From: Cyclonatronum proteinivorum
GTDB taxonomy: Bacteria; Bacteroidota; Rhodothermia; Balneolales; Cyclonatronaceae
Length of the DNA: 64,000 nucleotides
Assembly (NCBI RefSeq): GCF_003353065.1
Contig: NZ_CP027806.1
Coordinates: forward strand, 3,306,501 to 3,370,500
Direction of reading: 5' to 3'
The notes under the pieces are model-generated. The model saw only the letters and a program-made list of their open reading frames with translations, was not told the DNA's origin and searched no databases. The position numbers and the translations under genes were made by a program. Shown in pieces: positions 11,847-29,032 of the stretch (within the stretch, counting starts at the first letter, position 1; every line of letters begins with the position of its first letter).

Positions 11847-12359
11847 ATGGCTCTCTCATGGTCTGGTTTTGGAAAGCTTTTTTCAGGTAAAAGTTCTGAA
11901 GAGGAAGACTTTATAAAGCGGGTACAACTGTTTTGCGATCTATCCCGACGTGAACGGGTGAAAGTGCAGCGACTTATGCACTTCAGGGTATATGAAGAGG
12001 GGGAGTATATTTTTCACAAAGGTCAGCCCGGCGCGGCTTTCTATGTAATCCGAACCGGGCACGTGCAGATTGTCACACCCGCTTCACCGCCCATTATACT
12101 TGCGGAAGTATCACCTGGCGAAGTGATTGGTGAATTGGCTATACTGGATGAAACACCCCGGTCCGCAAGTGCCCTCACCTCGGAAAAGACGGAAACCCTG
12201 GCCATTTTCAAAGGTGATTTTGATGCCTTTATGCTCAGTGAGCCGGTCATTGCAGCCAAAATATACCGCAGGCTTGCCATTATTATTGGAAACAGACTGA
12301 AAACCACCAATGCCCTGCTTCAGACTCAAACTGAAAAGAGCGCAGAAAAGACAATGTGA
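11847..12359 (+). CDS. Cyclic nucleotide-binding domain protein (cNMP effector without DNA-binding domain)
   Basis: 170 residues consisting almost entirely of one CRP-type beta-barrel. Key positions of a cAMP-binding phosphate cassette are present: GELAILDETPRSASA holds the canonical Glu and Arg. FHKGQPGAAFYVIRTGHVQI is the conserved early barrel. The C-terminal 35 residues are a helix with no HTH, so it is not a transcription factor of the CRP kind. Its stop (TGA) shares a base with the ATG of the AI-2E-family transporter, so this sensor may act on that membrane protein. A class III adenylate cyclase is encoded 8 kb downstream, which could supply the ligand. Confidence 0.88.
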   Translation: MALSWSGFGKLFSGKSSEEEDFIKRVQLFCDLSRRERVKVQRLMHFRVYEEGEYIFHKGQPGAAFYVIRTGHVQIVTPASPPIILAEVSPGEVIGELAILDETPRSASALTSEKTETLAIFKGDFDAFMLSEPVIAAKIYRRLAIIIGNRLKTTNALLQTQTEKSAEKTM

Positions 12360-13666
12360 TGCGTAATCCGCAAAGCGATACCGAAGTTAAGCGCAGAACA
12401 CGTACTTATGTACTTGTAAGCAGCATCGTTTTTCTGCTCACAACCGGTTACGTGCTTTGGTCAATCCGCCCGTTGTTGCTGCCCGTCGTTTTCGGTGCAT
12501 TGCTGGCTTATGTGAGTCAGCCTGTTGTTGCGCTCTTAATTCGTAGGGGATTTCCCAAATTACTCAGCGTGCTGCTGTTTGTTACCTTCTTTATCACGCT
12601 GCTTTTTTATGCCTTCGTTTTTGTAAAGAATCAGATTCCCGACAGAGATGAACAGGCGGAACTGCGTACCGTTGCGATGTATCAGCTTAACGAGCGCTAC
12701 GAAAGCCTCATTGAAACTTCCGAACAGAACACCACTTTTGCCTTTGGCCTTCGCTTCCTCATGCAGGAAACGCATCCGCTGATTGATAACCTCAACTTTT
12801 TTCTGGCCCTCGAGCCGGAAGAACAGCGATCTTTTGAAGCCCGAATGGATAGCCTGAAGCACACAAGTCCCCGCTATGGGCGCATGCTTCAGTATCATCG
12901 TGAAAACCAGAATCTGAGATTATACACCAGCGATCTCTCCCTTTCAGAAGCTATTCTTACCGGTCAGCGCACCATTAACACGCGTGAACCCGCAGATCAG
13001 GAGCGGGAAGGCGGTTCAACCCTGCTGCTTATCTTTGGCTTCTTTTCCACCTGGCTCATTATGCCGGTTATTTTCTTTTTTCTTTTGCTGGATGAAGGTC
13101 GCTTCAGGCGCAAACTCATCTCAATGGTACCCAACATTTTCTTTGAAACAGCCCTGACATCCTTATATAACGTTGACAAAGCAATCGGCTCTTACCTGCG
13201 GGGCACGCTGCTCGAAAGCCTGGCTGTATTCACTGCATTTCTGATATTACTAAGCCTCATAGGCTTCAACTTCACGGTTTCAGTCCTAATAGGAATTGTA
13301 GCAGCTGTGGCAAATATCATCCCGTTTATTGGCCCGGCCGTAGGGATTATTCTGGTGATAGCATATGCGCTTATCATTGATGAAATCAATAGCATTCTTC
13401 CATTTATCAATACCGCAAATCTGGTTTACTTTGCGGGCTTAGCCGCCATTTTGATTCAGGTGTTGGATAACATGCTGCTCAAACCGCTCATTTTGGGCGG
13501 AGCGACAGACCTGCATCCGATTCTTGTTTTTTTCGTCGTAGTTGCCGGCGGTGTAATGTTCGGTTTCTGGGGTGTACTTTTTTCGATTCCGGTAATTGTA
13601 ATCATTAAAGTAAGTGCTACAACCATCCATGAACGGCTTTTGCTGTATCAGATCATCCGGCTTTAG
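12359..13666 (+). CDS. AI-2E/PerM-family membrane transporter
   Basis: About 435 residues with the family topology. Two N-terminal helices (VLVSSIVFLLTTGYVLW and LLPVVFGALLAYVSQPVVAL) precede a long soluble loop (residues about 90-220). Several C-terminal helices follow, with the conserved ANIIPFIGPAVGIILVIAYA motif and a final VMFGFWGVLFSIPVIVIIKV. Members export autoinducer-2 or act as Na+/H+ antiporters; the substrate here is open. ATG 12359 overlaps the stop of the cNMP-binding gene by one base (GTG 12356 is an alternative). The central loop is longer than I would expect for the family. Confidence 0.88.
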   Translation: MRNPQSDTEVKRRTRTYVLVSSIVFLLTTGYVLWSIRPLLLPVVFGALLAYVSQPVVALLIRRGFPKLLSVLLFVTFFITLLFYAFVFVKNQIPDRDEQAELRTVAMYQLNERYESLIETSEQNTTFAFGLRFLMQETHPLIDNLNFFLALEPEEQRSFEARMDSLKHTSPRYGRMLQYHRENQNLRLYTSDLSLSEAILTGQRTINTREPADQEREGGSTLLLIFGFFSTWLIMPVIFFFLLLDEGRFRRKLISMVPNIFFETALTSLYNVDKAIGSYLRGTLLESLAVFTAFLILLSLIGFNFTVSVLIGIVAAVANIIPFIGPAVGIILVIAYALIIDEINSILPFINTANLVYFAGLAAILIQVLDNMLLKPLILGGATDLHPILVFFVVVAGGVMFGFWGVLFSIPVIVIIKVSATTIHERLLLYQIIRL

Positions 13667-13865: not shown

Positions 13866-14774
13866 ATGCATTTAAAACTCGTTTCAGCCTGTGCATTAAC
13901 ATTCATCATCATATTTACCACCTCGTTGAATGTAAACGCTCAACCTATTCTAAATGATAATGATGAGCTCCTGAATGAAGCACGCTTTATGCTTGGTATC
14001 AGCAGCATGGACTTCACATTCAGAGACAGAGACCTGATGACCATTGCCGGTGAAAACGACTTCACCTATCAGTTCAATGGTGACGTTTACACCGCATACA
14101 TCGGAAGCGGAAAGTTTACGGGCCTAAGCGTTTCATTCGGAACCAACACTGAGTCATTTTTTTCATCTGCGCTTGCCGACTCTCTGCTTGAATTCGGTCC
14201 GGAGAATGCGATCGCAAATGAGGCTGATGTCCGCTTTCTGAACGTCAGGGCAAGCCTTGGGGGCAATAGTCAGCTCTGGCAGAACATCATGCGTCAGGAT
14301 CTCAACCTGTATCTGCCAATAAGGGTACACTTAAACTATTTCAACGTGTATTATGATACTGCCAATGAACTCAAGGATATCTTCAACGCCGCATTTCAGC
14401 AGGATTTCAGACCACTCAATAAGCTTGAGGCATCTTTCAACATCGGTCTTGGCGTAAACTACAGAACCGACCGCTTTTTCCCGCTGCTACAGGACAGACT
14501 TTTATTTGATCTGCACTTTACCAGAGGTTTAGGAGCAAATATACAGTACACCGATGGCGACATGTTTTACGGCGGCGCCCGTCATGATGAAGTAAATGCC
14601 TCCGTGCATTTCCTGCGCATCTTAGGACAAACCTCACTTGTTACAGGATTTCGACATATTCAAACCCGTTCAAACCAGGACGGTTTCGACGATTTCTTCG
14701 CGATGCTTAATGATCCGGACATCTTTGAATCGTCTCATTCCTCCCTGATGTTTTTTGTAGGTATTAAGTTTTAA
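13866..14774 (+). CDS. Secreted, probably outer-membrane beta-barrel protein, unknown function
   Basis: 302 residues with a clear signal peptide (KLVSACALTFIIIFTTSLNV, cleavage near NVNAQP). The rest alternates aromatic and polar residues in strand-length blocks (FTYQFNGDVYTAYIGSGKF, INHLNYFNVYYDT-like segments) and ends in an aromatic residue (SLMFFVGIKF), as expected for a barrel inserted in the outer membrane. No named family is recognised. It stands alone, ending at a strong terminator, so it has its own transcription unit. Confidence 0.68.
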   Translation: MHLKLVSACALTFIIIFTTSLNVNAQPILNDNDELLNEARFMLGISSMDFTFRDRDLMTIAGENDFTYQFNGDVYTAYIGSGKFTGLSVSFGTNTESFFSSALADSLLEFGPENAIANEADVRFLNVRASLGGNSQLWQNIMRQDLNLYLPIRVHLNYFNVYYDTANELKDIFNAAFQQDFRPLNKLEASFNIGLGVNYRTDRFFPLLQDRLLFDLHFTRGLGANIQYTDGDMFYGGARHDEVNASVHFLRILGQTSLVTGFRHIQTRSNQDGFDDFFAMLNDPDIFESSHSSLMFFVGIKF

Positions 14775-14812
14775 GCATGTGAATAAATCTGCCAAAGATA
14801 CCCTCCATATTG

Positions 14813-14851
14813 TCCGGATAAGCCTCAGGGGCTTATCCGGATGCTTTTTTT
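14813..14851 (+). terminator. Strong rho-independent terminator
   Basis: A perfect 12-bp stem (TCCGGATAAGCC / GGCTTATCCGGA) with a 5-base loop, followed by TGC and a 7-T run. It ends the transcript of the secreted barrel gene and insulates the NHL/TPR operon. Confidence 0.92.
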
Positions 14852-14924: not shown

Positions 14925-17900
14925 ATGAAACCCTTCCGCCCTCCCTTCCTGCTGCTTCCCCTCGTAATTCTTTTCTTTTTACCGTTTGTTGCAAACGGGC
15001 AACAATATGTACAAACACTTCCTAAACCAGCAGATACGGAGCAAACTTCGATCCGGGCACTTACAGATGCTGTACGCGCCGCAAACGGGGACTATTATCT
15101 CGTAGATCGAAGGAATTCAACAATTTCGATACTTGATCCAAATGGTGATTTGATCGAAGTGATTAATGGTTTCGTAGGACCGGCCGGCACCATTCAGCTT
15201 CGCAGCCCGCTTCGTATTGCAACCGGCCCCAATAACAGGCTTTACATCGCAGATGACAGGAACAATGAAATCTATGTTATTGAGGATTTACAGTACCTGC
15301 GTACCATCGGTGAATCAGGGCGTATGCCAGGACAGTTCAGCAGGATACGCGATATTGCCGTTGACAGCGACAATTACCTGTATGTGCTTGATGAAAGGGC
15401 CAATCGTGTGGATATTTTTGATGATCAGGGCCGCTTTGTAAACTGGATAGGAGGGCCTGAACGGGGTGAACCCAGGTTATTTGGGGATTTGCGCGGTATT
15501 GGTATTAATGGGGCTAATCAGCTTTATGTACTTGAAAACAACCCTGCAAGCCTGCATATTTTTTCCGATTCCGGTAAGCACATTCGCACGTTCCACAGCT
15601 TAGGTAGTGCAGGCAGTACGATTGAAAACGGACGCTCGCTTACCGTTTTCCAAAATGGTGATTTTTCCGTCCTTGATGGTGATAACGGCACCTTCAGCAC
15701 CTTCAGCAAAAACGGAGAATTCATACAGCGTACCGGCCGTAGTGCACGCATGAGCTCCCCCGGTATTTTCCGTGATCCGCTGATTCTGCGTGCCTCTATT
15801 GAAAGTCCCAATACCTTACTGGTCATTGACGCCGGCGACAATAATGTGCAGGAATACGTGTACAGTTTTCAGCCGGAAGATTTCAGCAGGACCGAAAAAA
15901 TACAGCTCGAGCACTTAACAGAAAGCATTCCAGCATTTTCAGATGCCGTTTTTGCACCCAATGGCGTGATGTATTACATACCGGATGGCAGTCAAAGTGA
16001 AGTTGTAGCGCTTGATCTGAATTACGGGGAAGTACGTTTCCGGTTGCCCGCCCAGCGTGCACACCGGCTCGCGACCGACAATAACAGCCGCGTATATATA
16101 GTCGATCAACACCGCAGGTCAAACGAAATCAATATCTTTAGTAGTGCCGGCGTGCTTGAACTGAGCCTGGGTCAGGATATTGCCAACCCCCTGCAAAGTC
16201 CTGAAGCCATTACTGTTAAAAGTGACGGCACCATCATCGTAGCGGACGCTTCACACCCGCGCCTTCATCAATGGGCGGCAAACGGAGAGTACCTCGGTGA
16301 CGAAATTTCTCTCCGCCAACTCGACCATCGAAATATTTCGATTATACGCACTGACAGCCGGGATAACATTTACCTGCTCGATGGTTCTGAAAACGAAATC
16401 TACCGCCTCAATGCGGCAGGCATGCTCACCGATCCGCAACCGCTAACGGTATCCGGATACAATCCGGAGCGGGGAAATGCTGAAATAAGCTGGTTCGATA
16501 TAGATTTGTCTGATCAGCTCCACTTATTCAATAATGAAACACTGCAATACTATTTATTTGAGTGGGAACCCAGTATTCAGTCCATCAATACCCCAAATCT
16601 GCTCTTCAAATTTGGCAGATCCGGGGAGAACGAGCTTGATTTCATGCGCACTGGTGCCGTAGCACTGAATCCGCATCAGCTCACAGCTCATGTAATGAAC
16701 AATCGCGGCCGGGAAGTAAAGTCCATCGGCATCACCATAAGGCCGCCCAAACCTGACCTCGACTCCTTTGTTTTTTCGGTTGATGAGGAGGGCTTTTTGC
16801 ACATTCGCCCTAAGGATGGCTTCGACGGGGTAACAAGCAGCTTCAGTTTAGCCATAGAAAACCTCGAAAACGGCGAGCTCGAAATCATAAGTTCGGATAA
16901 TCAGACGATTTCCGTGAATTACGCAGATCAGCGCAATGAACTGCTAAATTTTCGGATTATGGGTGCAAGTGCGGGAAACCTGAGTGAACCCAGTGAAGCA
17001 TTTCAGGACTACATTGGCTACGGCCGATATCTCGCTTCTCAGGAATTATTCATACACGCCCTCGAACAGTACGGACGTGCGCCCGGCTACTACTCCAATA
17101 CTGACCCTGAAATGGTCAACTTTATTGCGCGGCAGTATATCAACTGGGGTCAGACGCTCACAAACCGCGGGGAAGCCTACCTTACTACGCTCATTTTACG
17201 GAATGCCAGCACGCTTATTGATGAGCGTGATCCCCTCACAAGAGATATCAGCGAAGTCCTCATTACGCTGTATAATACACTGGGACGCCGGGGCGCTTAT
17301 GATGTACTCATAGAAAGCACCGATAATTTATTGGGTATCACATCACCTTCAATCGTTGATGAAGTAAGCCGTACAATAGGTCAGGTAGCTGCAGGGATGG
17401 CACGTACCGGTGTTGAACAGCGCATTCTGCAAAGCATTGAAATCTACAACCGCATGCTTGAGTGGGCCGATCAGCCTGACTGGGCGCTCAGCGGGCTTGC
17501 AGCTTCTCAGCTCAGTTACTTTGAACTGCTCGAACGTACAAATGCCCCGCATCACCTCAGCAGTTTGCGCATAAACCGCGCACAGCAAGCGGTGGAGGAA
17601 GCACTTGAAAAGATTCGTTTGGTTAATAACCTCTACAACGAAACCCGCATACTCCAACTTCGCATCCTGAATTATCAGGGGCAGCACGATCAGGTCATGG
17701 AGATCGCAGAACAGGAGCTTACCGATCAGATACCGGGCATGGATCAGCGTTTCGAACGCCTCTACCGATTACATGGCGGCAAGGCTATGCTTGCGGCCGG
17801 TGAATACAATCGGGCTATCTTCAATTTCACAGAGTTGCTTCAGCTGGATCAGGGGGATACAGATGTTCAGCTCATGCTTGCGGATGCTTATTTCAGGGAT

Positions 17901-19949
17901 GGGCGCTATGCGGAAGCACAGGGTATTTACCGGCAGTTACAGCTCCGCAACCCGGATGAAGCCCTCTATCAGGGGCTGACAGGCCGTACCGAATTCGCTC
18001 TTGGTAACTACGCGGAAGCCTCCTTTCAGCTTGAGCAGGCCATTCGCGCCAACCCCGATATCAACTGGTTCTACGGAGAACTCGCCCGTGCATTCTTTAT
18101 GGACGGCAAATACACCGAAGCATTAGCCTACTTTGAGCTTAGCGTGAGTGAAACCACAAACCGGCTCTCAGCTGCGCGGCAGCGTCAGCTTCCACAGCAG
18201 GCGCAAGCTGAAATACGCAGCGAACTGGAAACCTACCTTTTTGAACAAGGCGTGGCAGCTTCCCGTATTCGGGATTATGAAACAGCACAACAGGCCCTTC
18301 AAAGTCTGGTTGAGCTCACCCCCTCAAACGCGCAGTACTGGTTCGAACTGGGCAATGTATTCGTCAACACCGGGCTCGTTTATCAGGCTGAAAATGCTTT
18401 TTCACGGGCGCTTTCCATCGAATCTCAAAATGAAACCTACCGCAATGCTTTTAATCAGGCCCGTGAACGCAGCGACGAGTATGCCACAAATCAGCCGGCT
18501 GCTCGAATCCTGAGCGTGAACGTGAACCCTGTTTTCCCTTCCGTTTACCGGAATTATACGGACGCACAGTCGATCGGTGAGGTCGTAATCGAAAATAATA
18601 CGGCTTCCGTAATCACCAATGCCCGGCTCGAGGTTTCATTCAGCCGCTTTGCTGCCGAAAGTTACTTCATTGACCTGCCGGTGATGTCACCAAGAAGCAA
18701 CACTTCCGTACCCTTGTTCATGGCCTTCACCAGCGATATCATGACCAATGTTGAAGACACCAATGCGCAGCTCACGCTTAATCTGTTCTATAACCACCGC
18801 GGCGAGTCACTTACAGACGTCAGCAACGCCAATGTAACAATTCACCGCCGCAGCGCCATCAGCTGGCAGGACAAGCGGAGCCTGGCTTCATTCATATCTC
18901 CGGGCAGCGAAACCATACGGCAGTTTGTTTCTGAAATCAACAGCAACCTTGAACCACTCTCTGTACTTGACCTGCCGGAAGCCATTCTCATTGGCGCACG
19001 CCTGTACAGCACGCTAAACAACAGTGGCTTTGTTTATCAGCGGGATCCCAACATTGAGACAATTCTGGCTACCGGCGTTCTTGATGACATACAGTTCCCT
19101 GCTGAAACCCTCACACTCAGAAGCGGCGAATGCGATGACTTTGTTGTTATGTTTTGCAGCCTTTTTGAAGCTCAGGGCATTCGAACAGCCTACATTGATG
19201 TACCCGGCCATGTGTTCATGGCATTTGATACCGGTCTGAGTACAGACGAGCTTGATTTTATGGGGATGGATGCATGGAGATTTATTACTTATGAAAACCG
19301 TGTTTTCCTGCCTATTGAAACGACTCTGCTCGGGCGCGGAAGCTTTATGCAGGCCTGGGAAAATGCGGCCCTGCGCTGGCAGCAGGAGCGCGAAGCCGGA
19401 AACATGCCTCAGATTGTACCCATCGAGCAGGCCCATCGGGTCTATGCCCCTTCTGAGTACGTGCCTACAGATTTCCGGTCACCGCTGGTTTTCAGCGATG
19501 ATCTGCTGGCCGATTTCAGCTACACGCTGCAGCAGGTCTTCAATAGTTTTAATGCCGGCATGATACAGAATATCGAACAACGCTTAACTGCAGAACCCGA
19601 AAATCTTTTTCTCGTAAACCAACTCGGTATTTTGTTAGCTCAAACCGGAGAAACCGACAGAGCAAAAGAGGTTTTTGAAAACGGGCTCGCAATTTTTCCG
19701 GAAAGTCCGCAGCTCAACAACAACATGGGAAACCTGTACTTCCAGGAAAGAAACTTCATCAGAGCTGCTGAATTTTATCGCAACAGCACACAGCTAAATG
19801 ATCAAAATGCTGAGGTGTTTGTAAACCTTGCCCGTTCATTGCTGGAAGCGGGACAGACAGATGCTTCGAGAGACGCCCTCAGACAGGCGCTCCGTCTCGA
19901 CCAAAATGTACGCAGCCGCTACGATTTCATTTTTAACGAGTTATTCTGA
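14925..19949 (+). CDS. Giant secreted NHL-propeller / TPR / transglutaminase-like protein (1674 aa)
   Basis: The signal peptide (residues 1-25, LPLVILFFLPFVANGQQ) places it in the periplasm or outside. Residues about 45-600 hold many NHL-type blades (for example LRIATGPNNRLYIADDRNNE and DIAVDSDNYLYVLDERAN), enough for one or two propellers. TPR-like helices fill about 690-1180 (LMLADAYFRDGRYAEAQGIY). A transglutaminase-like domain follows: Cys1403 in SGECDDF, His1429 in PGHVFMAFD, and Glu1465 in LPIETT at the usual Asp position. TPRs return at 1520-1674 (LNNNMGNLYFQERNFIRAAE). Its stop overlaps the FecR gene start by one base. It is probably a scaffold or sensor reporting to the downstream cyclase; whether the transglutaminase fold is a protease or only a binding module is unknown. 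A GTTAGC-TTCG-GCTAAC hairpin lies in the leader (14884-14899). Confidence 0.9.
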   Translation: MKPFRPPFLLLPLVILFFLPFVANGQQYVQTLPKPADTEQTSIRALTDAVRAANGDYYLVDRRNSTISILDPNGDLIEVINGFVGPAGTIQLRSPLRIATGPNNRLYIADDRNNEIYVIEDLQYLRTIGESGRMPGQFSRIRDIAVDSDNYLYVLDERANRVDIFDDQGRFVNWIGGPERGEPRLFGDLRGIGINGANQLYVLENNPASLHIFSDSGKHIRTFHSLGSAGSTIENGRSLTVFQNGDFSVLDGDNGTFSTFSKNGEFIQRTGRSARMSSPGIFRDPLILRASIESPNTLLVIDAGDNNVQEYVYSFQPEDFSRTEKIQLEHLTESIPAFSDAVFAPNGVMYYIPDGSQSEVVALDLNYGEVRFRLPAQRAHRLATDNNSRVYIVDQHRRSNEINIFSSAGVLELSLGQDIANPLQSPEAITVKSDGTIIVADASHPRLHQWAANGEYLGDEISLRQLDHRNISIIRTDSRDNIYLLDGSENEIYRLNAAGMLTDPQPLTVSGYNPERGNAEISWFDIDLSDQLHLFNNETLQYYLFEWEPSIQSINTPNLLFKFGRSGENELDFMRTGAVALNPHQLTAHVMNNRGREVKSIGITIRPPKPDLDSFVFSVDEEGFLHIRPKDGFDGVTSSFSLAIENLENGELEIISSDNQTISVNYADQRNELLNFRIMGASAGNLSEPSEAFQDYIGYGRYLASQELFIHALEQYGRAPGYYSNTDPEMVNFIARQYINWGQTLTNRGEAYLTTLILRNASTLIDERDPLTRDISEVLITLYNTLGRRGAYDVLIESTDNLLGITSPSIVDEVSRTIGQVAAGMARTGVEQRILQSIEIYNRMLEWADQPDWALSGLAASQLSYFELLERTNAPHHLSSLRINRAQQAVEEALEKIRLVNNLYNETRILQLRILNYQGQHDQVMEIAEQELTDQIPGMDQRFERLYRLHGGKAMLAAGEYNRAIFNFTELLQLDQGDTDVQLMLADAYFRDGRYAEAQGIYRQLQLRNPDEALYQGLTGRTEFALGNYAEASFQLEQAIRANPDINWFYGELARAFFMDGKYTEALAYFELSVSETTNRLSAARQRQLPQQAQAEIRSELETYLFEQGVAASRIRDYETAQQALQSLVELTPSNAQYWFELGNVFVNTGLVYQAENAFSRALSIESQNETYRNAFNQARERSDEYATNQPAARILSVNVNPVFPSVYRNYTDAQSIGEVVIENNTASVITNARLEVSFSRFAAESYFIDLPVMSPRSNTSVPLFMAFTSDIMTNVEDTNAQLTLNLFYNHRGESLTDVSNANVTIHRRSAISWQDKRSLASFISPGSETIRQFVSEINSNLEPLSVLDLPEAILIGARLYSTLNNSGFVYQRDPNIETILATGVLDDIQFPAETLTLRSGECDDFVVMFCSLFEAQGIRTAYIDVPGHVFMAFDTGLSTDELDFMGMDAWRFITYENRVFLPIETTLLGRGSFMQAWENAALRWQQEREAGNMPQIVPIEQAHRVYAPSEYVPTDFRSPLVFSDDLLADFSYTLQQVFNSFNAGMIQNIEQRLTAEPENLFLVNQLGILLAQTGETDRAKEVFENGLAIFPESPQLNNNMGNLYFQERNFIRAAEFYRNSTQLNDQNAEVFVNLARSLLEAGQTDASRDALRQALRLDQNVRSRYDFIFNELF

Positions 19950-20695
19950 TGAATCACAGATTTCTTTATTCTCTTATCACTTCAGCTCTGTTTTCTTTAC
20001 AGCTGATGAACCCTTGTTTTTCTGAAGCCCGGCAAACGGCTGCCAGCACTGCTCAGCCACAGAGTGAAGCCATTGGTACCCTGGTCTTTTTTCAGGGCCG
20101 GGTGATGGTGTTTGTGGAAGACAACTGGCGGCCTGCAACTGTAAATCTACCCCTTACGGCTAACCGCCGTATACAGACCGGTCCCGCTTCGCAAGCTGAA
20201 ATAGAGTGGCGAACAGGGGATACAACCGTCATTGGGAGCAATGAAACACATAGTCTTGAAACCCTTTATGCCGCGTTTCAGCAGTCATCATCGAGGCAGA
20301 CGGAAGGTGTTTTTAACCGTTTCCGATCCATGTTTCGCGGACAGATCGACGATTCGCGGCAGGCTGAAGGGGGTATACGCCGCGACCGGGTCGACTTGGA
20401 ACGTAAGCCAAACCCCGGCGAACTCTATTGGTATCAGGATCCTCAAATCAACATAGCCGACGCCTTTGAAACCTACGAAAGCGGTGACTACCGCAGGGCT
20501 CTTATCGAACTCACTCTCTTCACAGAACAACAGCCGCGGAGTCAGCACCTGCGTCAGGCGCTGTTTATGATAGGCCATTGTCAGATTGAGCTTAACAACA
20601 TTCCGCAGGCACGCGAAACCTTCAACCGGATTATCACCCTGTTTCCCGGCGAACCCATTGCCGGGGAGGCACGTGAAGTTCTTCAGCAGCTGTAG
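19949..20695 (+). CDS. Secreted FecR-domain protein with TPR-like C-terminus
   Basis: 248 residues with a signal peptide (FLYSLITSALFSLQLMNPCF). Residues about 42-100 match a FecR-type domain: GTLVFFQGRVMVFVEDNWRP, then ANRRIQTGPASQAEIEWRTG. These domains sit in the periplasm and in many bacteria partner with CHASE2 cyclases or sigma/anti-sigma systems. Residues about 170-245 carry a tetratricopeptide-like helical pair (IADAFETYESGDYRRALIEL and INNIPQARETFNR-type spacing). It overlaps the upstream giant gene by one base and precedes the cyclase gene by 7 bases, so it is very likely part of the same signalling complex. Confidence 0.85.
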   Translation: MNHRFLYSLITSALFSLQLMNPCFSEARQTAASTAQPQSEAIGTLVFFQGRVMVFVEDNWRPATVNLPLTANRRIQTGPASQAEIEWRTGDTTVIGSNETHSLETLYAAFQQSSSRQTEGVFNRFRSMFRGQIDDSRQAEGGIRRDRVDLERKPNPGELYWYQDPQINIADAFETYESGDYRRALIELTLFTEQQPRSQHLRQALFMIGHCQIELNNIPQARETFNRIITLFPGEPIAGEAREVLQQL

Positions 20696-20702
20696 GTAGC
20701 GG

Positions 20703-23015
20703 ATGAAATTCTACAAGGCCAACTTCAATATGCAGCTTCCTGCTGGTAAACCCGGCTGGAAGCTGCTCAGTTTTGTAATCATTTGCGTACTATCGCTGCT
20801 GATTACACAGGCCTTTTCCTGGGTAAACCAAAACCTTACCCGCTCTCCGCTTACAGCTATTGATCTTGCGATTGATGACCTTGCCCTTCAAATCCGAACC
20901 CTGACCTATCAGGACAAACGGGTCAGTCCGAATGATTTTGTTATCATTGATATAGATGACTTCTCGATTTCACAGCTCGGAAGGGTTCAGCTTTGGCCCA
21001 GAAAATTCGACGCACAGGTTATCCGGAACATTAGCTCCGGAAAACCTCGCGTAATTCTGCTCGACGCACTCTACACAGAAACAGACGCGCTTCCTGAAGC
21101 TTATGTAGGGCTTCTAACCGAAAGAGGCTTTGAACAGGCAAACAGTATTGTTGCGGCAATGAGTACTGACGTCTATTTGACGGAAGCCATCCGGGAAGCC
21201 GGAAATGTCATTTTGGGCATGTTTGACACATCCGCGGATTTTCTGGAGGGTGATTCATTCAATGCTGAACTGGCAACACAGCTGCTACCACGTATCTATG
21301 GCAGCCGTCAGTTCTCAGGAGGCTACTATCAGCGCAGTGTACCGGTTTTACCTGCCACTGATTTTGCACACAATGCCAAAGCCATGGGCTTGCTCAAAGT
21401 GAATCCTGACCCGGATGGCACCGTGCGGCTTTACACCCTGCTTCAGCAAAGCCCGTTTCTGGATGGGGAAACAACAGCATCTCAGGTTCGCCTTCTTCCT
21501 TCCTTCATCCTTCCCGCCGCATTAAGCTACCTTGGGCTTACCGATGCTGATGTAGAAGCCCAACATGGGTTGATCCGTCTGGGCAATGTTATGCGGATCC
21601 CGGTAAACCAGCGGGCAGAGTTCAGCCTGAACTGGTTGGGGAGCGGTGAAGGCTTCCGGTACATCTCATTTTATAATGTATGGAGCGGACAGGTACCGCT
21701 TTCGTTTTTTGAAGATAAAATAGTGTTCGTAGGGAGCAGTGCTGCGGGCCTTGAAGATCTCAAAAACACCCCGGTCAATCAGGTAATGCCCGGGGTGGAA
21801 GTACACGCCACAGCTTTGTACAATCTGCTAAATGAGAGCTGGCTCGTCCGTCTCGACGACAGCCATCAGCTTTGGCTTAAAGGCCTGCTGGTATTTTTTT
21901 GCAGTGCCCTGTTTTTACTCATCCCGCAATGGCAGGCACTAATAGCCGTACTGATTCTTATTTCGCTGCAATTCTTTGGCTATGTGCTCCTTATCGTACC
22001 GGAACTCAAAGTCCTTTTTCCGCTCTCCGGAGTTGTTATCCTAACGATCAGCTCTTTTACGCTTTCACTTGTGTACCGGAATGCGACGGAAGGCCGCGAA
22101 AAACGTCAGCTAAAACTTGCCTTTTCTTCTTACGTTTCGCCGCAAATTGTTGAGGAGCTTATTGAAACCGGCAGGGATCCGCAGCTGGGCGGGTCAGAAC
22201 GTGAGATTTCGGCTTTCTTTAGCGACATTGAATCTTTCTCGCGTATTTCGGAGAAACTCAATGCCCCACAGCTGGTTGAACTGATGAATGAGTACCTCGA
22301 CGCCATGACCTCCATTATTACCGAGGAGCGCGGTACCCTTGATAAATACATTGGTGACGCCATCGTAGCCTTTTTTGGCGCACCAATTACGGTTGAAGAC
22401 CATGCCCTGAGGTCTTGTGTATCTGCCTGCAGGATTATGGAAGCTGAAACAGCACTCCGGGAGAAATGGACAGAAACAAAAGCAGACTGGCCACAAGAAA
22501 TATTCCGGCTGAAAAGCCGGGTTGGCATCAACTCGGGCCTTGCGGTAACCGGCAACATGGGTTCTTCGAAACGATTTAATTATACTATGATGGGGGATAC
22601 CGTGAACCTTGCAGCCCGTTGCGAAAGCGCGGCAAAACAGTACGGCATACAGGCCATTGTAACCGAATCTACGCGGGATCAGGCGCTAAAGGCTGGCGCT
22701 GACTGCAGCTTCCGGAAGCTTGACCGGGTAACGGTTGTTGGACGAACTAAGGCTGTGGAGCTTTACGAGCTTGTGGGATTTCGCGATAAGCTCAGCGATC
22801 AGCAACAGCGCTGTATTGCTGCATATGAAAACGGATTTGAAGCCTATTTGAAACAGGAATGGACGACAGCAACGGCGTATTTCACAGAAGCCCTTTCCCT
22901 GGAAACAAATACCGCACATAACCCATCGGCAGTCATGATTTCCCGCTGTGAAGCCCTCCGGGTTCAGCCTCCGGATGATGGATGGAACGGCGTATTTAAC
23001 CTTAAGTCAAAATAA
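20703..23015 (+). CDS. CHASE2-domain class III adenylate cyclase
   Basis: 770 residues. An N-terminal membrane helix (SFVIICVLSLLITQAFSWV) and a periplasmic CHASE2 sensor (about 45-385; DFVIIDIDDFSISQLGRVQL, VFVGSSAAGLEDLKNTPVN) lead to three more helices (about 393-465). The cytoplasmic cyclase domain is about 490-690. The metal-binding Asp508 (FFSDIESFS) and Asp552 (YIGDAIVAFFG) are present. The base-selecting pair is Lys548 (TLDKYIGD) and Thr628 (NYTMMGDTVN), the K/T combination of class IIIb adenylate rather than guanylate cyclases. The Asn/Arg of VNLAARCE complete the site. It should convert ATP to cAMP on a periplasmic cue, presumably relayed by the FecR and NHL/TPR proteins encoded just upstream. 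Confidence 0.95.
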   Translation: MKFYKANFNMQLPAGKPGWKLLSFVIICVLSLLITQAFSWVNQNLTRSPLTAIDLAIDDLALQIRTLTYQDKRVSPNDFVIIDIDDFSISQLGRVQLWPRKFDAQVIRNISSGKPRVILLDALYTETDALPEAYVGLLTERGFEQANSIVAAMSTDVYLTEAIREAGNVILGMFDTSADFLEGDSFNAELATQLLPRIYGSRQFSGGYYQRSVPVLPATDFAHNAKAMGLLKVNPDPDGTVRLYTLLQQSPFLDGETTASQVRLLPSFILPAALSYLGLTDADVEAQHGLIRLGNVMRIPVNQRAEFSLNWLGSGEGFRYISFYNVWSGQVPLSFFEDKIVFVGSSAAGLEDLKNTPVNQVMPGVEVHATALYNLLNESWLVRLDDSHQLWLKGLLVFFCSALFLLIPQWQALIAVLILISLQFFGYVLLIVPELKVLFPLSGVVILTISSFTLSLVYRNATEGREKRQLKLAFSSYVSPQIVEELIETGRDPQLGGSEREISAFFSDIESFSRISEKLNAPQLVELMNEYLDAMTSIITEERGTLDKYIGDAIVAFFGAPITVEDHALRSCVSACRIMEAETALREKWTETKADWPQEIFRLKSRVGINSGLAVTGNMGSSKRFNYTMMGDTVNLAARCESAAKQYGIQAIVTESTRDQALKAGADCSFRKLDRVTVVGRTKAVELYELVGFRDKLSDQQQRCIAAYENGFEAYLKQEWTTATAYFTEALSLETNTAHNPSAVMISRCEALRVQPPDDGWNGVFNLKSK

Positions 23016-23032
23016 ATCAGGACCTGTAGCTT

Positions 23033-23905
23033 ATGACTGATCATAAGAACCCAGCAAGTATGCGGATCGAATTTTTGGGAGTACGGGGCTCGGTACCAAC
23101 ACCGGGTAAACACACACTTTCCTACGGGGGCAATACGTCCTGCGTTTTAATTCAGTTTTCTGACAGCGATCATCACCTGTTTCTTGACGCCGGTACCGGT
23201 ATTGTGAAAGGAGGCAACCGGCTGGCCGATCACCCTACCCCTGTTGGAGGGCGCATCCTGCTTACGCACGCACATAGCGACCATATTCAGGGCATTCCGT
23301 TTTTCAAACCCTTGTATCAGCCGCATCATCAGTTTCACATTCACATGCCGGAACAGGCCGGACAGAATTGTGAACAGGTGTTAAAAATGCTGATGGCACC
23401 GGCCTTTTTTCCGGTCAATACCGATGCCTTCAAGGCCTCAATCACATACATCACACAGGGCACAGCGCCTGTTAAATTTAGGGAAGGGTACGAAGTTGAA
23501 GCGCTGACCGCATGTCATCCCGGCAACACCTTCATGTATAAAGTGAAATACAAAAACCTGACGCTGGTGTATTGTCCCGATAATGAGCTGAAACCAAATG
23601 ACAGCGCAATGCGGGCGCGCGTATCTGAATTTATCAACGGGTGCGACATGCTGATACACGACAGTCATGAAAGCCGGTCGAGCTATGAAAACAAGCGCGG
23701 CTGGGGACACTCAGCCTGGGAGGATGTTACGGAGCTGGCCTTTGAAGCCAGCGTAAAACAGCTCTATCTCACGCACCACGCCCCGGAATCCCGCGACGCG
23801 CATCTTGAACAGCGGCAGCAGCGGCTCAGCATGATGAACCGTCGTCCCCCTACCGCACTTTTTGCACGTGAAGGCTTTGTAACCGAACTCACTGCTTCGG
23901 CTTAA
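23033..23905 (+). CDS. Metallo-beta-lactamase-fold hydrolase (PhnP-like branch)
   Basis: 290 residues beginning MRIEFLGVRGSVPTPGKHTL after a short lead. The metal-site motif is LTHAHSDHIQG (HxHxDH); further His/Asp ligands are in TACHPGN, IHDSHES and LTHHAPE. This branch of the fold includes phosphodiesterases. Because it is the last gene of the cyclase operon (17-bp gap), hydrolysis of the cyclase product cAMP is an attractive role, but the substrate cannot be read from sequence. ATG 23033 gives MTDHKNPAS; the internal Met at 23060 is an alternative start. Confidence 0.85.
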   Translation: MTDHKNPASMRIEFLGVRGSVPTPGKHTLSYGGNTSCVLIQFSDSDHHLFLDAGTGIVKGGNRLADHPTPVGGRILLTHAHSDHIQGIPFFKPLYQPHHQFHIHMPEQAGQNCEQVLKMLMAPAFFPVNTDAFKASITYITQGTAPVKFREGYEVEALTACHPGNTFMYKVKYKNLTLVYCPDNELKPNDSAMRARVSEFINGCDMLIHDSHESRSSYENKRGWGHSAWEDVTELAFEASVKQLYLTHHAPESRDAHLEQRQQRLSMMNRRPPTALFAREGFVTELTASA

Positions 23906-23956: not shown

Positions 23957-25297
23957 TCACGCATCCGCGCTTCCGGCTCTTCCGACTTCAATGAAGCCGA
24001 GGGTGATATCATCGCTCTGATGGGCTTTTCCGCGATGAAGGTCTACATCCTCAATCAAAGTACGGAGCATGATTTCCCCACTGCCATTGTTGCGATAAGC
24101 GGTCTCAAGAAGCTGCTCCATACGTTCAGCGGTGTACTCTTCCGTATCTGTGTTCATGGCTTCCGTAACGCCATCGGTATAGGCCGCAAGCACATCACCG
24201 GGTTTGAGCTGCAGCTCTTCCGTTGCATACGGAATCGCCATCACGCCCAGCATGAGTCCGCCTTTATTCAGTCTGAGAGGCATACCATTTCCGGAATCCT
24301 TCCGAAATAAGAGCACCGGATCATGCCCCGCCGAAATGGAAGTTAGTCTCAGATCTTCCTCATCAAGCAAGGCGAACCAACCTGTCACAAATTTATCCGG
24401 CGTCGTTGATTCTATCAGGAAGGTGTTAAGGGATTCAACAAAATGCTTGAGCTGAAAGCTTTTTTTGTGAATGATGAGGTAGCTGTGAATAAAGGAGAAA
24501 ACGGACGACACAATAAGGGCAGCCGAAATACTTTTTCCGGTTACATCGGTCAGAAAGAACAGCGCCTGCCGATCATTAATCCGTATCAGATTGTAATAAT
24601 CGCCGCCAAGGTGTTTTGCCGGACGCAAAAGGGTGTGCACGGAAAAAGAACGCAGTTCGGGCAGACGATCCGGCAGGATTTTGCGCTGAATGCTGCGCGC
24701 TGTTTCAAGCTCGGTACGCATTTGTTCTGCTTCAATCTCAAACTGCCCCAGCCGGTAGTTCTCAATAGCGATAGCACACTGCCCCGCAAGGGCAGAAAAA
24801 AACTGTTCATCCTGCGTATCAAAGCTGCGGTTGGATGATTTGTTCATCACCTGTATAACACCAATAAGAGTGCCCTTGCGCTCCATAGGGGCGCAAATCA
24901 TGTTGCGGGTTACAAAGCCTGAACTCATATCAAAGGCTGGATTAAACCGCGGATCGGTATAGCAATCATCAATCCGCACGGTTTTCATTTCTTCTGCAAC
25001 CCAGCCGGCTATGCCTTCACCAATATTTATTTCCTTCGACTTTATAAACGTGCCTTTTTCACCTTCCGCAACATAAAAAACGAGCTTCCCTGTTTTTTCA
25101 TCAAACAGTAATAAGGAGGAGGCTTCGGCATCAAGAAGCTTTTTGCTGGTGTCAATTATGCTCTTAAGGAGCTCAGGAAGAGGCTTTTTCTCAATAATCT
25201 GATTGGAAATATCCTTAAAAAAAAGCGTTTTCCGCACCAGGCTTCGATAGTTCGTGCATGTATTGCAGTCATGTTTGGGGTCTGCGTACTCACTCAT
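23957..25297 (-). CDS. GAF-domain PP2C/SpoIIE-type serine phosphatase
   Basis: About 446 residues from ATG 25295-25297 (MSEYADPKHDCNTC); an upstream in-frame start adds 20 residues. An N-terminal CxxC-bearing segment is followed by a GAF domain (about 40-195; EGIAGWVAEEM, GVIQVMNKSSN) and a helical linker (ELETARSIQRKILP). The RsbU/SpoIIE-type phosphatase domain follows, with metal-binding positions GGDYYNL, DVTGKSIS, DGVTEAMN and QSDDITLG. Such proteins dephosphorylate anti-anti-sigma factors in partner-switching cascades. None is encoded in the window, so the target is unknown. Its gene converges on the cyclase operon with a 51-bp gap. Confidence 0.92.
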   Translation of the reverse strand: MSEYADPKHDCNTCTNYRSLVRKTLFFKDISNQIIEKKPLPELLKSIIDTSKKLLDAEASSLLLFDEKTGKLVFYVAEGEKGTFIKSKEINIGEGIAGWVAEEMKTVRIDDCYTDPRFNPAFDMSSGFVTRNMICAPMERKGTLIGVIQVMNKSSNRSFDTQDEQFFSALAGQCAIAIENYRLGQFEIEAEQMRTELETARSIQRKILPDRLPELRSFSVHTLLRPAKHLGGDYYNLIRINDRQALFFLTDVTGKSISAALIVSSVFSFIHSYLIIHKKSFQLKHFVESLNTFLIESTTPDKFVTGWFALLDEEDLRLTSISAGHDPVLLFRKDSGNGMPLRLNKGGLMLGVMAIPYATEELQLKPGDVLAAYTDGVTEAMNTDTEEYTAERMEQLLETAYRNNGSGEIMLRTLIEDVDLHRGKAHQSDDITLGFIEVGRAGSADA

Positions 25298-25413
25298 TTC
25301 GGTTTTATATTTGGTTTGTGATGTATCTTGTAATCTTATTTCAAAAAAGTTTCCCATGCGCCAAGCATTCAGTAAAATAATAGAATTTTTACTGTTATTT
25401 GTTGCATGCAGGA

Positions 25414-26221: not shown

Positions 26222-29032
26222 TTATCTGAGCAACAGCATTTTTTCCGTAAAAAAGCGTCCGTCGGCCTGTAAGCGCACCAAATAGACGCCCGAAGCTAGT
26301 GCACTTCCGTCAAAAACCACATCATAGCGTCCCGGTGATTGCACCCCGTCAGCCAGCGTTGCGATCCGCCGCCCCGTCACATCATATACCGTAAGCCGCA
26401 CGCGGGTTTGGCTGCCAATTTCGTACGGAATAATCGTCTGCGGATTAAACGGGTTGGGGTAGTTGTTGCCCAGCGCTACAATAAAAGGAAGTTCGTAGCC
26501 AGCCGGCGGCGCTGTGGTTTCATCAGGAAACTGCACCGCGCTGATATCGAGATAAAGGGTGTGTCCGCTTTCCCAGCTTGTCAGCATACCGTCAGCTGCC
26601 GTATAGCGGTACACCGCAGGCGCCCCATCTCCAGAGTAGCTGCGGCTCAGAAGTTCAGCGGTAAGAAGCGATGGCTGAAGCCGGTCTGTATCGAGCGTAA
26701 TGCGCAAACCTGTTTCCATGGCCGGGCTCAGGAACACCCCCGTTTCACGCAGGTCTATCGATACCTCATTAAAATCCCGGATATCATGTAGCGAAACCCG
26801 CACCGGATTACCAATCGCGCGCTCGACCCTGCTGCCGTCCTGCCGCAGTTCTACGAGCTCAGCCACAAGTGCGGGATCACTGCCTTCCGGAAAATCCAGC
26901 ACGCCGGTATGAAGCGTCACTTTATTCAGGACTCCGGCCATGCGCGGCAGGCGATAGACCACGCCATTTTCTGCGTTAAGTAGCATGGAAGCACTGCCGG
27001 ACTGATTCAGCACCCCGGGCTGCCACAAATGCAGACCCGACACGCCATCAAGCGCGTCCCCGTCGGGCAATGCCGCAATGGCCCCCAAAAGATCGAGCTT
27101 GCCCATGCCCCAGCGCGGGTGCGGCACCTCTCCCGTAAACTGATCCGTGCGGGCTCCTTCAACAATGGCCTGCTTGATGGTAGCGTGCATGGCGTTCGGG
27201 AAAGCCTGCAGCATAAGTGCCGCGGCCCCTGCTGCCACCGGCGACGCCATGCTTGTGCCCGCCATCCACATGTAGTCTTCCCCGGGCTGTACCGAATTGC
27301 CGGAGCCCCCGCTGCTGCGGGACCGGGCAGCGGCCACAAAACGCCCCGGCGCCGTGACCTCCGGCTTCAGCCTGCCGTCACGGGTTGGCCCGGTTCCGGT
27401 AAAAAAAGCCAGGCTGCCAAGCGGATTCGATTCCCGCTGAAACACCAGACCACTCTGATTCAGCCAGTTGTTCTGCATCACATAGCCGCCTGTTGTCAAA
27501 ACCGACTTTCCGGTGCCAGGCGTCGTGACCGTGAAATCAGACGTAGCGCCCTGCTGCGAAATCGTGAGATTCCCAACCCTGTTCAGGACCATCCATGACT
27601 GAAACGGGCCGTCATAATCCGCTATGCTGATCCGCCAGCTGCCCGAAGCGGGCGGAAATGCGGCGTCATCATCACCCACATAAAAAATGAGCCGGCGGTG
27701 TCCGTTGGGCGCGTGCACAAAGTTCTCCCCTTCGATCACCCCCTCCGAAAAATCATCCGCGCCGCTAAAACTTCCGGGTTCCCATTCATAGACAGCGCCG
27801 CCCGGCGTTGTGACCCGCAGCGTAGCGGGCGCGTCCGACTTCAGCCAGATATCGACCAGCAAGCGGTCGTTGAACGGGCCGAGACGCGGCGTATAAGCCG
27901 GGATATCCAAAATAATATCATCCGTACCGGCCATGCCGCCAAAATACCGGAGCTCAGACCCATTGTTGCCTGCGGCCGTCACCATCATTACGCCCGGATT
28001 TTCGGTCGCAGCATCCATCGCACGCTCGGTTGCTTCTGATCCGTCACGCGCATGAAAAAGCCCGCCAATGCTGAAATTCGTGACCACAGGCCGGTTGTAC
28101 GTCTCCCGCAGCGAAGCCGAAAACTGAACCGCGCTGATAATATCAAAGGCCGTAAAGGACTGATTTCCGCCTTTAATCACCACGAGATCCGCTTCTGGTG
28201 CCATGCCGGGCAGGTGTGGCCCGCCGCCCGCCATAGTTCCGGCAACATGCGTTCCGTGACCGTTTGAGTCCTGCGAACGGATTCCGTCTCCGGTTGCGAG
28301 CGCCGCTTCAATATCCGCGCGGGTGTAGAGCACGCCGTAATCGAAAGGCGGCGGCGGGCTTTGCTCCTCATCCTGTGGCGTAAGCGTCTGATCCCACACA
28401 TACTTTATGCGCGACCGCAGCGAATCTTCAGGATGTCGGAAAGCCGGATGGGTAACATCAATGCCTGAATCGAACACCGCAGCAATCACCCCCTGCCCGG
28501 TAAGCGTTGTATTTTGCCAGATTCCCTGATGGAGCGCGTCGGCCCGGCTTTCGGCACGCGCCCGGTTTCCGGTTGTTTCGTGCAGGAGCGCCGGCTCAAG
28601 CCAGTCGAAACTCGCCGAATCCGCCAAATCCCGAAGCTCTGCATAGGTAAGCCGCAGCGCATACACCCCCTGCGTCGCCTTCATCCACCGCCCCGGCTGC
28701 CTGAAGTCCGTCGGCAGGGTTTCAGCATGAAGGATTACCTCAAAATACAAGGTCTCCGCTGCAGGCTCACCCACAAGACCGAAATCCTCCCCGTGGTTGC
28801 GCGCCCGCACTTCCTGAAGTTCCGCCTCCGAAATCCGCAGCACGCGCTGCACGAGCGGGTGCATATCCGGGCGGAATTCAGCCCCCCGTTGCAGCGTTTC
28901 ACCCTGAGAAACACCCCTGACCCAATCCAGACTTGTAACGGCCTGTTGCGCCATTGCAGGGGAAAAAGCCATCATCCCCAAAAAAAAGATGATCCATAAA
29001 AACCTGAAACCTGTACGATAGCGAAGTAGCAT
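26222..29032 (-). CDS. Secreted subtilisin-like (S8) protease with T9SS C-terminal tail
   Basis: 936 residues. The signal peptide (FLWIIFFLGMMAFSPAMAQQ) is followed by an inhibitor-like propeptide region (about 30-160). The S8 catalytic triad is present: Asp in AAVFDSGIDVTHP, His in SNGHGTHVAGTM and Ser in MAGTSMASPVAAG. A beta-rich insert and later domains follow. The last 85 residues are a type A sorting domain (NNYPNPFNPQTIIPYEI ... YDVTGRRIATLADG ... GVYLVRLQADGRFFTEKMLL), which directs export through the type IX system and is normally removed. It should be an extracellular protease, consistent with a protein-degrading lifestyle. Confidence 0.96.
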   Translation of the reverse strand: MLLRYRTGFRFLWIIFFLGMMAFSPAMAQQAVTSLDWVRGVSQGETLQRGAEFRPDMHPLVQRVLRISEAELQEVRARNHGEDFGLVGEPAAETLYFEVILHAETLPTDFRQPGRWMKATQGVYALRLTYAELRDLADSASFDWLEPALLHETTGNRARAESRADALHQGIWQNTTLTGQGVIAAVFDSGIDVTHPAFRHPEDSLRSRIKYVWDQTLTPQDEEQSPPPPFDYGVLYTRADIEAALATGDGIRSQDSNGHGTHVAGTMAGGGPHLPGMAPEADLVVIKGGNQSFTAFDIISAVQFSASLRETYNRPVVTNFSIGGLFHARDGSEATERAMDAATENPGVMMVTAAGNNGSELRYFGGMAGTDDIILDIPAYTPRLGPFNDRLLVDIWLKSDAPATLRVTTPGGAVYEWEPGSFSGADDFSEGVIEGENFVHAPNGHRRLIFYVGDDDAAFPPASGSWRISIADYDGPFQSWMVLNRVGNLTISQQGATSDFTVTTPGTGKSVLTTGGYVMQNNWLNQSGLVFQRESNPLGSLAFFTGTGPTRDGRLKPEVTAPGRFVAAARSRSSGGSGNSVQPGEDYMWMAGTSMASPVAAGAAALMLQAFPNAMHATIKQAIVEGARTDQFTGEVPHPRWGMGKLDLLGAIAALPDGDALDGVSGLHLWQPGVLNQSGSASMLLNAENGVVYRLPRMAGVLNKVTLHTGVLDFPEGSDPALVAELVELRQDGSRVERAIGNPVRVSLHDIRDFNEVSIDLRETGVFLSPAMETGLRITLDTDRLQPSLLTAELLSRSYSGDGAPAVYRYTAADGMLTSWESGHTLYLDISAVQFPDETTAPPAGYELPFIVALGNNYPNPFNPQTIIPYEIGSQTRVRLTVYDVTGRRIATLADGVQSPGRYDVVFDGSALASGVYLVRLQADGRFFTEKMLLLR

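Follow-up and report, generated by a model that had tools for sequence, protein, structure and literature searches.

The window, a 64,000-nucleotide stretch of the Cyclonatronum proteinivorum genome, was analysed around a four-gene operon. The operon and its neighbours comprise the following features, with positions numbered from the first nucleotide of the window.

11847 to 12359, plus strand: small stand-alone cyclic-nucleotide-binding (cNMP) protein, 170 aa, candidate cAMP receptor (GEVIGELAILDETPRSASA)
12356 to 13666, plus strand: AI-2E family transporter, whose gene shares 4 bases with the cNMP gene
13866 to 14774, plus strand: exported 302-aa protein, possible outer-membrane protein, adjoining the operon
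14811 to 14843, plus strand: intrinsic-terminator-like hairpin and T-run upstream of the operon, 15-pair stem, CTTTTTTT tail
14925 to 19949, plus strand: giant exported protein, 1674 aa, with signal peptide, NHL/6-bladed propeller(s), TPR, Ig-like, transglutaminase-like and C-terminal TPR parts
15003 to 16754, plus strand: propeller region of the giant (NHL 7.1e-11, DUF5128 4.4e-9; outer limits approximate)
16992 to 18464, plus strand: middle TPR array of the giant, from Pfam (limits approximate)
18477 to 19559, plus strand: Ig-like and transglutaminase-like (TG) module, residues 1185-1545 of the giant, from alignments, model and Foldseek
19131 to 19133, plus strand: Cys1403 codon of the giant, an invariant column
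19209 to 19211, plus strand: His1429 codon of the giant, invariant, partner of Cys1403
19317 to 19319, plus strand: Glu1465 codon of the giant, invariant, partner of Cys1403
19557 to 19907, plus strand: C-terminal TPR repeats of the giant, from the domain search
19949 to 20695, plus strand: exported FecR-like/TPR protein, 248 aa
20703 to 23015, plus strand: CHASE2 adenylate cyclase (CHASE2-AC), 770 aa, CHASE2 and class IIIb catalytic domain
23033 to 23905, plus strand: MBL-fold hydrolase (PF12706) of the RNase Z/atypical class II phosphodiesterase type, a lineage-specific operon member
23957 to 25357, minus strand: GAF-SpoIIE phosphatase, found repeatedly as a neighbour within the family (G005, G006, G008 and G009)

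All four operon reading frames were open, and their positions and gaps (-1, 7 and 17 bp) were as given in the preliminary description. Since the strong hairpin at 14811-14843 separates them from the upstream gene, the unit begins at the giant gene; its 3' boundary is the convergent SpoIIE gene. The 302-aa protein had no Pfam match; a homologue was observed in G006 (L015), where it is divergent to a giant gene. The locus did not show a FecI-FecR-FecA arrangement: no sigma-factor domain was detected among the genes scanned around the operon, which is flanked by the uncharacterised exported protein and the SpoIIE phosphatase rather than by an ECF sigma factor and a TonB receptor. Elsewhere in the window (26222-29032) lies the gene of a subtilase that has a C-terminal sorting domain for type IX secretion.

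In the giant protein, the NHL/6-bladed propeller and many of the TPRs exceeded the Pfam cut-offs. The TG domain scored below the Pfam gathering threshold (PF01841, 16.1 versus 23 bits), with 24.2 bits reached in the relative L088, and residues Cys1403, His1429 and Glu1465 were invariant across an alignment of 25 TG homologues. The AlphaFold model of the module had a pLDDT of 90.3 and a pTM of 0.87, and human transglutaminases were among its best PDB fold matches (Foldseek, E about 1e-4); the TM-score to these enzymes was low because the alignment covers only parts. As judged by alignment and model, the module has the Cys-His-Asp/Glu set in a predicted transglutaminase fold.

In the 248-aa protein a secretion signal is followed by a beta domain in the model, then by a helix and TPRs, and the TPR assignment was clear. 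There was no match to Pfam FecR (PF04773) below an E-value of 0.1. An invariant GIRR motif in the eight homologues resembles the FecR G-[IV]-R-G signature, and a GIRG/VRGT counterpart was seen in FecR proteins of Ensifer and Ruegeria. The modelled beta part and the motif agree, and the protein, which lies below the Pfam threshold, is accordingly termed FecR-like. Its best fold match was 5ix9, an adhesin cell-surface anchoring domain, which was also found by the family profile over the beta part residues (E 0.0038); comparison of this profile with the FecRs of the order's other FecR/CHASE2-AC loci gave a weak match (hhalign probability 33%). The longer invariant motif, QxEGGIRR, was considered as a transglutaminase or protease site; this reading was set aside because the FecRs near other CHASE2 cyclases carry GIRG/VRGT at apparently the same place.

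The cyclase has a hydrophobic segment (21-39), the CHASE2 domain (49-402), a hydrophobic stretch (390-455), the catalytic domain (500-688) and a C-terminal tail. Both domains matched above the cut-off (CHASE2, 9e-46; Guanylate_cyc, 1.6e-21), and the metal aspartates D508 and D552, the specificity pair K548/T628, and N635 and R639 follow the class IIIb pattern. These data bear out the original proposal of a membrane cyclase with a CHASE2 sensor and a K/T active site, for which the product predicted from these residues is cAMP. In a search limited to class III enzymes, it was the only PF00211 protein in the window genome.

To delimit the unit, gene neighbourhoods were compared across genomes. 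The giant was found in the window genome (G000), in four of its 59 sampled relatives (G005, G006, G009 and G011, all of the same order) and in G313, G135 and G068, which represent three further families of the phylum. In all eight giant-bearing genomes the order and strand of the giant, FecR-like/TPR and CHASE2-AC genes were kept, with giant identity down to 27% and FecR-like/TPR identity of 20-76%. Full-length giants were present in G005, G011, G313, G135 and G068; the gene was split over contigs in G006 and G009. Intergenic gaps were mostly -35 to +36 bp, the exception being G313 (192 and 163 bp). Retention of order and strand in eight genomes is far beyond chance, and the true unit is this triad, not the four genes first described. 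Thus the exported partners and the cyclase were upheld as a conserved unit, whereas the hydrolase lay directly after the cyclase only in the window genome and one congener (G005) among the triad loci, and its status as a fixed fourth operon member was rejected outside the window's genus; co-conservation of all four genes, which the preliminary description had set as its own test, thus failed for the hydrolase. Within the genus the giant is patchy, with none in G001-G004. The nearest named relative was a Balneolales MAG, 80% identical over the giant; the contig scan yielded nothing but the congener. G006 carries at least two window-type cyclases, which are 56% identical. The G011 cyclase gene is followed by a gene (L020, 8919-10397) for another exported protein, whose C-terminal motif is transglutaminase-like.

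The TG module also occurs near other CHASE2 proteins. In a 148-genome sample, a CHASE2 gene lay within about 6.2 kb in 18 of the 22 TG-bearing genomes. In seven genomes a CHASE2-AC gene adjoined the gene of a shorter TG protein (about 830 aa), in several cases together with a CsgG/LpoB-like protein, and 660-aa TG proteins, one with weak PorV-family similarity, lay near CHASE2 proteins at L086-L088, L090 and L091; the one CHASE2 protein tested among these loci, that of L088, carries a sigma-54 activator. Most other CHASE2-AC genes of the order were preceded by a barrel-like exported protein of 904-945 aa (L101, L102, L104-L107, L109, L111 and L112), and at several of these loci a FecR gene comes first. 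This protein is possibly NsrA-like; homology to the giant was rejected (hhalign probability 0.1%). Since most other CHASE2-ACs of the order have this barrel-like partner, the window system is a variant with the giant in the partner's place. At L103 and L108, in two genomes, the CHASE2-AC gene adjoins a gene of about 430 aa, which at L103 encodes an SH3-M48 peptidase. Apart from one irrelevant co-mention, a literature search returned no description of CHASE2 with a transglutaminase-like partner.

The small cNMP-binding gene upstream of the operon had been missed in the earlier reading of the sequence. Five places in the window genome encode cNMP-binding domains, among which 11847-12359 scored best. 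Clear orthologs (E below 1e-37) were present in seven of 41 genomes, namely all five triad genomes versus two of the 36 others (Fisher 2.8e-5, with no phylogenetic correction; the association rests on few independent lineages, several of them incomplete MAGs). The AI-2E gene adjoined the ortholog in all seven. Because the cNMP/AI-2E pair of G011 lies apart from the triad, the co-occurrence cannot be put down to linkage. The coupled pair suggests a direct cAMP target. Nothing was found in the literature on AI-2E transporters with cNMP-binding proteins.

Consistent with the preliminary description of a metal hydrolase from a phosphodiesterase-containing fold, the fourth gene product matched PF12706 (9.7e-14, 51.9 versus 27 bits) with a complete metal-ligand set. 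Rv1339, CpdA and YhfI are atypical class II phosphodiesterases with the motif [T/S]HxHxDH (PMC9293780). The hydrolase shares their PF12706 MBL fold, and its THAHSDH motif at 78-84 satisfies the pattern; however, it was not classed as an Rv1339/CpdA member because its NF041851 equivalog score was only 42.9 bits against a cut-off of 400. With the hydrolase family profile, solved RNase Z and BA1088 outscored YhfI (6kns). Identity as RNase Z was rejected, the TIGR02651 score being 80.3 versus 292.95 bits and the genome's true RNase Z lying elsewhere (323.9 bits).

The hydrolase may be unconnected with cAMP, a single-copy housekeeping or two-component output enzyme of the order that arrived behind the triad by chance in this genus, a reading to which we give somewhat less than an even chance. 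Its family was present in 25 of the 31 genomes of the relatives search, mostly unlinked to CHASE2, and occurred in five genomes with no PF00211 match (G015, G021, G024, G027 and G029). The L093 member has an N-terminal receiver domain and L094-L096 have aligned N-terminal extensions; the order's genes (L093-L096 and L098-L100) lie near DUF349 genes, and the receiver-MBL form is 410-428 aa. In the phylum sample, no gene of this MBL family was beside CHASE2 outside G000 and G005, and in the tree the window MBL grouped with the order's own MBLs. That tree placed the MBL of an Ensifer plasmid on a separate branch, and since FecR, TPR and CHASE2-AC genes occur there with an overlapping same-family MBL gene and a small cNMP-binding gene close by, the pairing with CHASE2-AC probably arose twice, which speaks against chance arrival. 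Also against it are the Rhizobium and Phyllobacterium MBLs, which have cyclases a few kb away, the phosphodiesterase motif, and the gene orders of G008 (SpoIIE, cNMP, AI-2E, MBL) and G006 (MBL, AI-2E, cNMP and SpoIIE on one contig together with a window-type cyclase), which indicate that the MBL belongs to a neighbourhood of the cNMP protein, with the triad in or beside it. On the strength of the Ensifer pairing, the nearby rhizobial cyclases and this neighbourhood, a cyclic-nucleotide role for the MBL was considered slightly better than an even bet. That the hydrolase may remove cAMP is plausible in view of the Ensifer locus and of a published Campylobacterota cluster (below).

CHASE2-cyclase envelope signalling is already known from several systems. 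In Sinorhizobium meliloti, NsrA acts on the CHASE2 cyclases CyaK and CyaD to control cAMP, as established experimentally (PMC13001267, PMC7529298). The likeness of the NsrA-CyaK/CyaD1/CyaD2 relay to the window system lies in an envelope partner controlling a CHASE2 adenylate cyclase; NsrA is an outer-membrane beta-barrel, whereas the window has the giant and the FecR-like/TPR protein, and the Sinorhizobium cAMP works through a CRP-type receptor, whereas no Clr-type target was identified for the window system. Magnetotactic bacteria encode MtxA, with Ig-like and TPR parts, before a CHASE2 cyclase gene (PMC4439547). The Magnetospirillum protein, likened here by description and not by sequence, is similarly an exported Ig-like and TPR protein directly before the cyclase, but is about 313 aa long and has no propeller or transglutaminase-like domain.

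In Campylobacterota, a published cluster combines a CHASE2-AC, a FecR outer-membrane protein, a TPR protein and a phosphodiesterase (PMC9239204). Compared by category only, it has the same four functional categories and the same CHASE2-cyclase core; a giant propeller/TG protein is not described for it, nor is the phosphodiesterase fold given. The adjacency of FecR and TPR to the cyclase seen there is found in the window too, with a sub-threshold FecR on which fold and motif agree. The Ensifer sp. PDNC004 plasmid (NZ_CP070354, L113) resembles the window in its FecR, TPR, CHASE2-AC, same-family MBL and small cNMP-binding protein. It differs in having a 104-aa TPR protein, no giant, and FecR/TPR on the opposite strand; an NHLP-type exporter with the small cNMP-binding gene lies beside these genes (L113, 621-7638). 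The Campylobacterota and Ensifer loci make a phosphodiesterase role possible and the combination less unprecedented than the preliminary description had taken it to be. No description was found of a propeller/TPR/TG giant as the partner, and the window system is in this respect a new variant.

Taken together, we put the probability that the first three genes form one envelope-to-cytoplasm relay via cAMP at about 0.6. The conserved triad, the sole class III cyclase and the known CHASE2 precedents favour this part of the original model; the hydrolase as a fixed member was not retained. The giant and the FecR-like/TPR protein, both exported, would serve the CHASE2 domain in the periplasm as sensors or adaptors. 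The target that the TG domain, whose Cys-His-Glu set is intact, binds or acts on is probably a protein or peptide of the envelope, and the state of the giant would be passed via the FecR-like/TPR protein to CHASE2, which in turn would control the class IIIb cyclase. The cAMP would act on small cNMP-binding proteins, most likely the AI-2E-coupled one upstream. In the window's genus the MBL hydrolase has joined the operon, and its substrate there is probably cAMP or some other cyclic nucleotide.

A different role for the giant, primarily as an envelope-assembly enzyme or scaffold in surface-protein processing, with the cyclase only reporting on that activity and its signal feeding back on a machine for export or surface assembly, appears rather unlikely. 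It would accord with the pairing of TG modules with a CHASE2-sigma-54 activator and with CsgG/LpoB-like lipoproteins, with the match of one TG homologue to LapG protease and with the match of the FecR-like part to the cell-surface anchoring domain of an adhesin; no secretion or polymer gene, however, was conserved with the triad in all loci. A defence function, suggested by the use of cyclic nucleotides as common defence signals and by matches of 18 of the 25 TG modules to the N-terminal part of the 'anti-phage protein ProA' profile (NCBIfam NF058533; best 1.5e-21; L076 also matched), was rejected as very improbable because its only support was this profile, to which all matches were far under the curated cut-off (38.7 versus 1500 bits for 18477-19559), the cyclase being a class III CHASE2 receptor rather than a CBASS or Pycsar type and no effector gene having been found.

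The cAMP relay may be one form of a wider arrangement. Possibly, though we hold this as a doubtful extension, an exported TG/TPR protein and CHASE2 form a general, unnamed envelope-sensing pair with an exchangeable output domain, either a cAMP cyclase or a sigma-54 activator; within the window's family cAMP would then gate an AI-2E-family transporter via a separate small cNMP-binding subunit. Many genomes link the TG partner to CHASE2 proteins, which carry two different kinds of output, and in the host genome no class III cyclase was detected besides that of the triad. A conserved exported TG partner with an intact active site offers a concrete handle on how an envelope signal is received by CHASE2.
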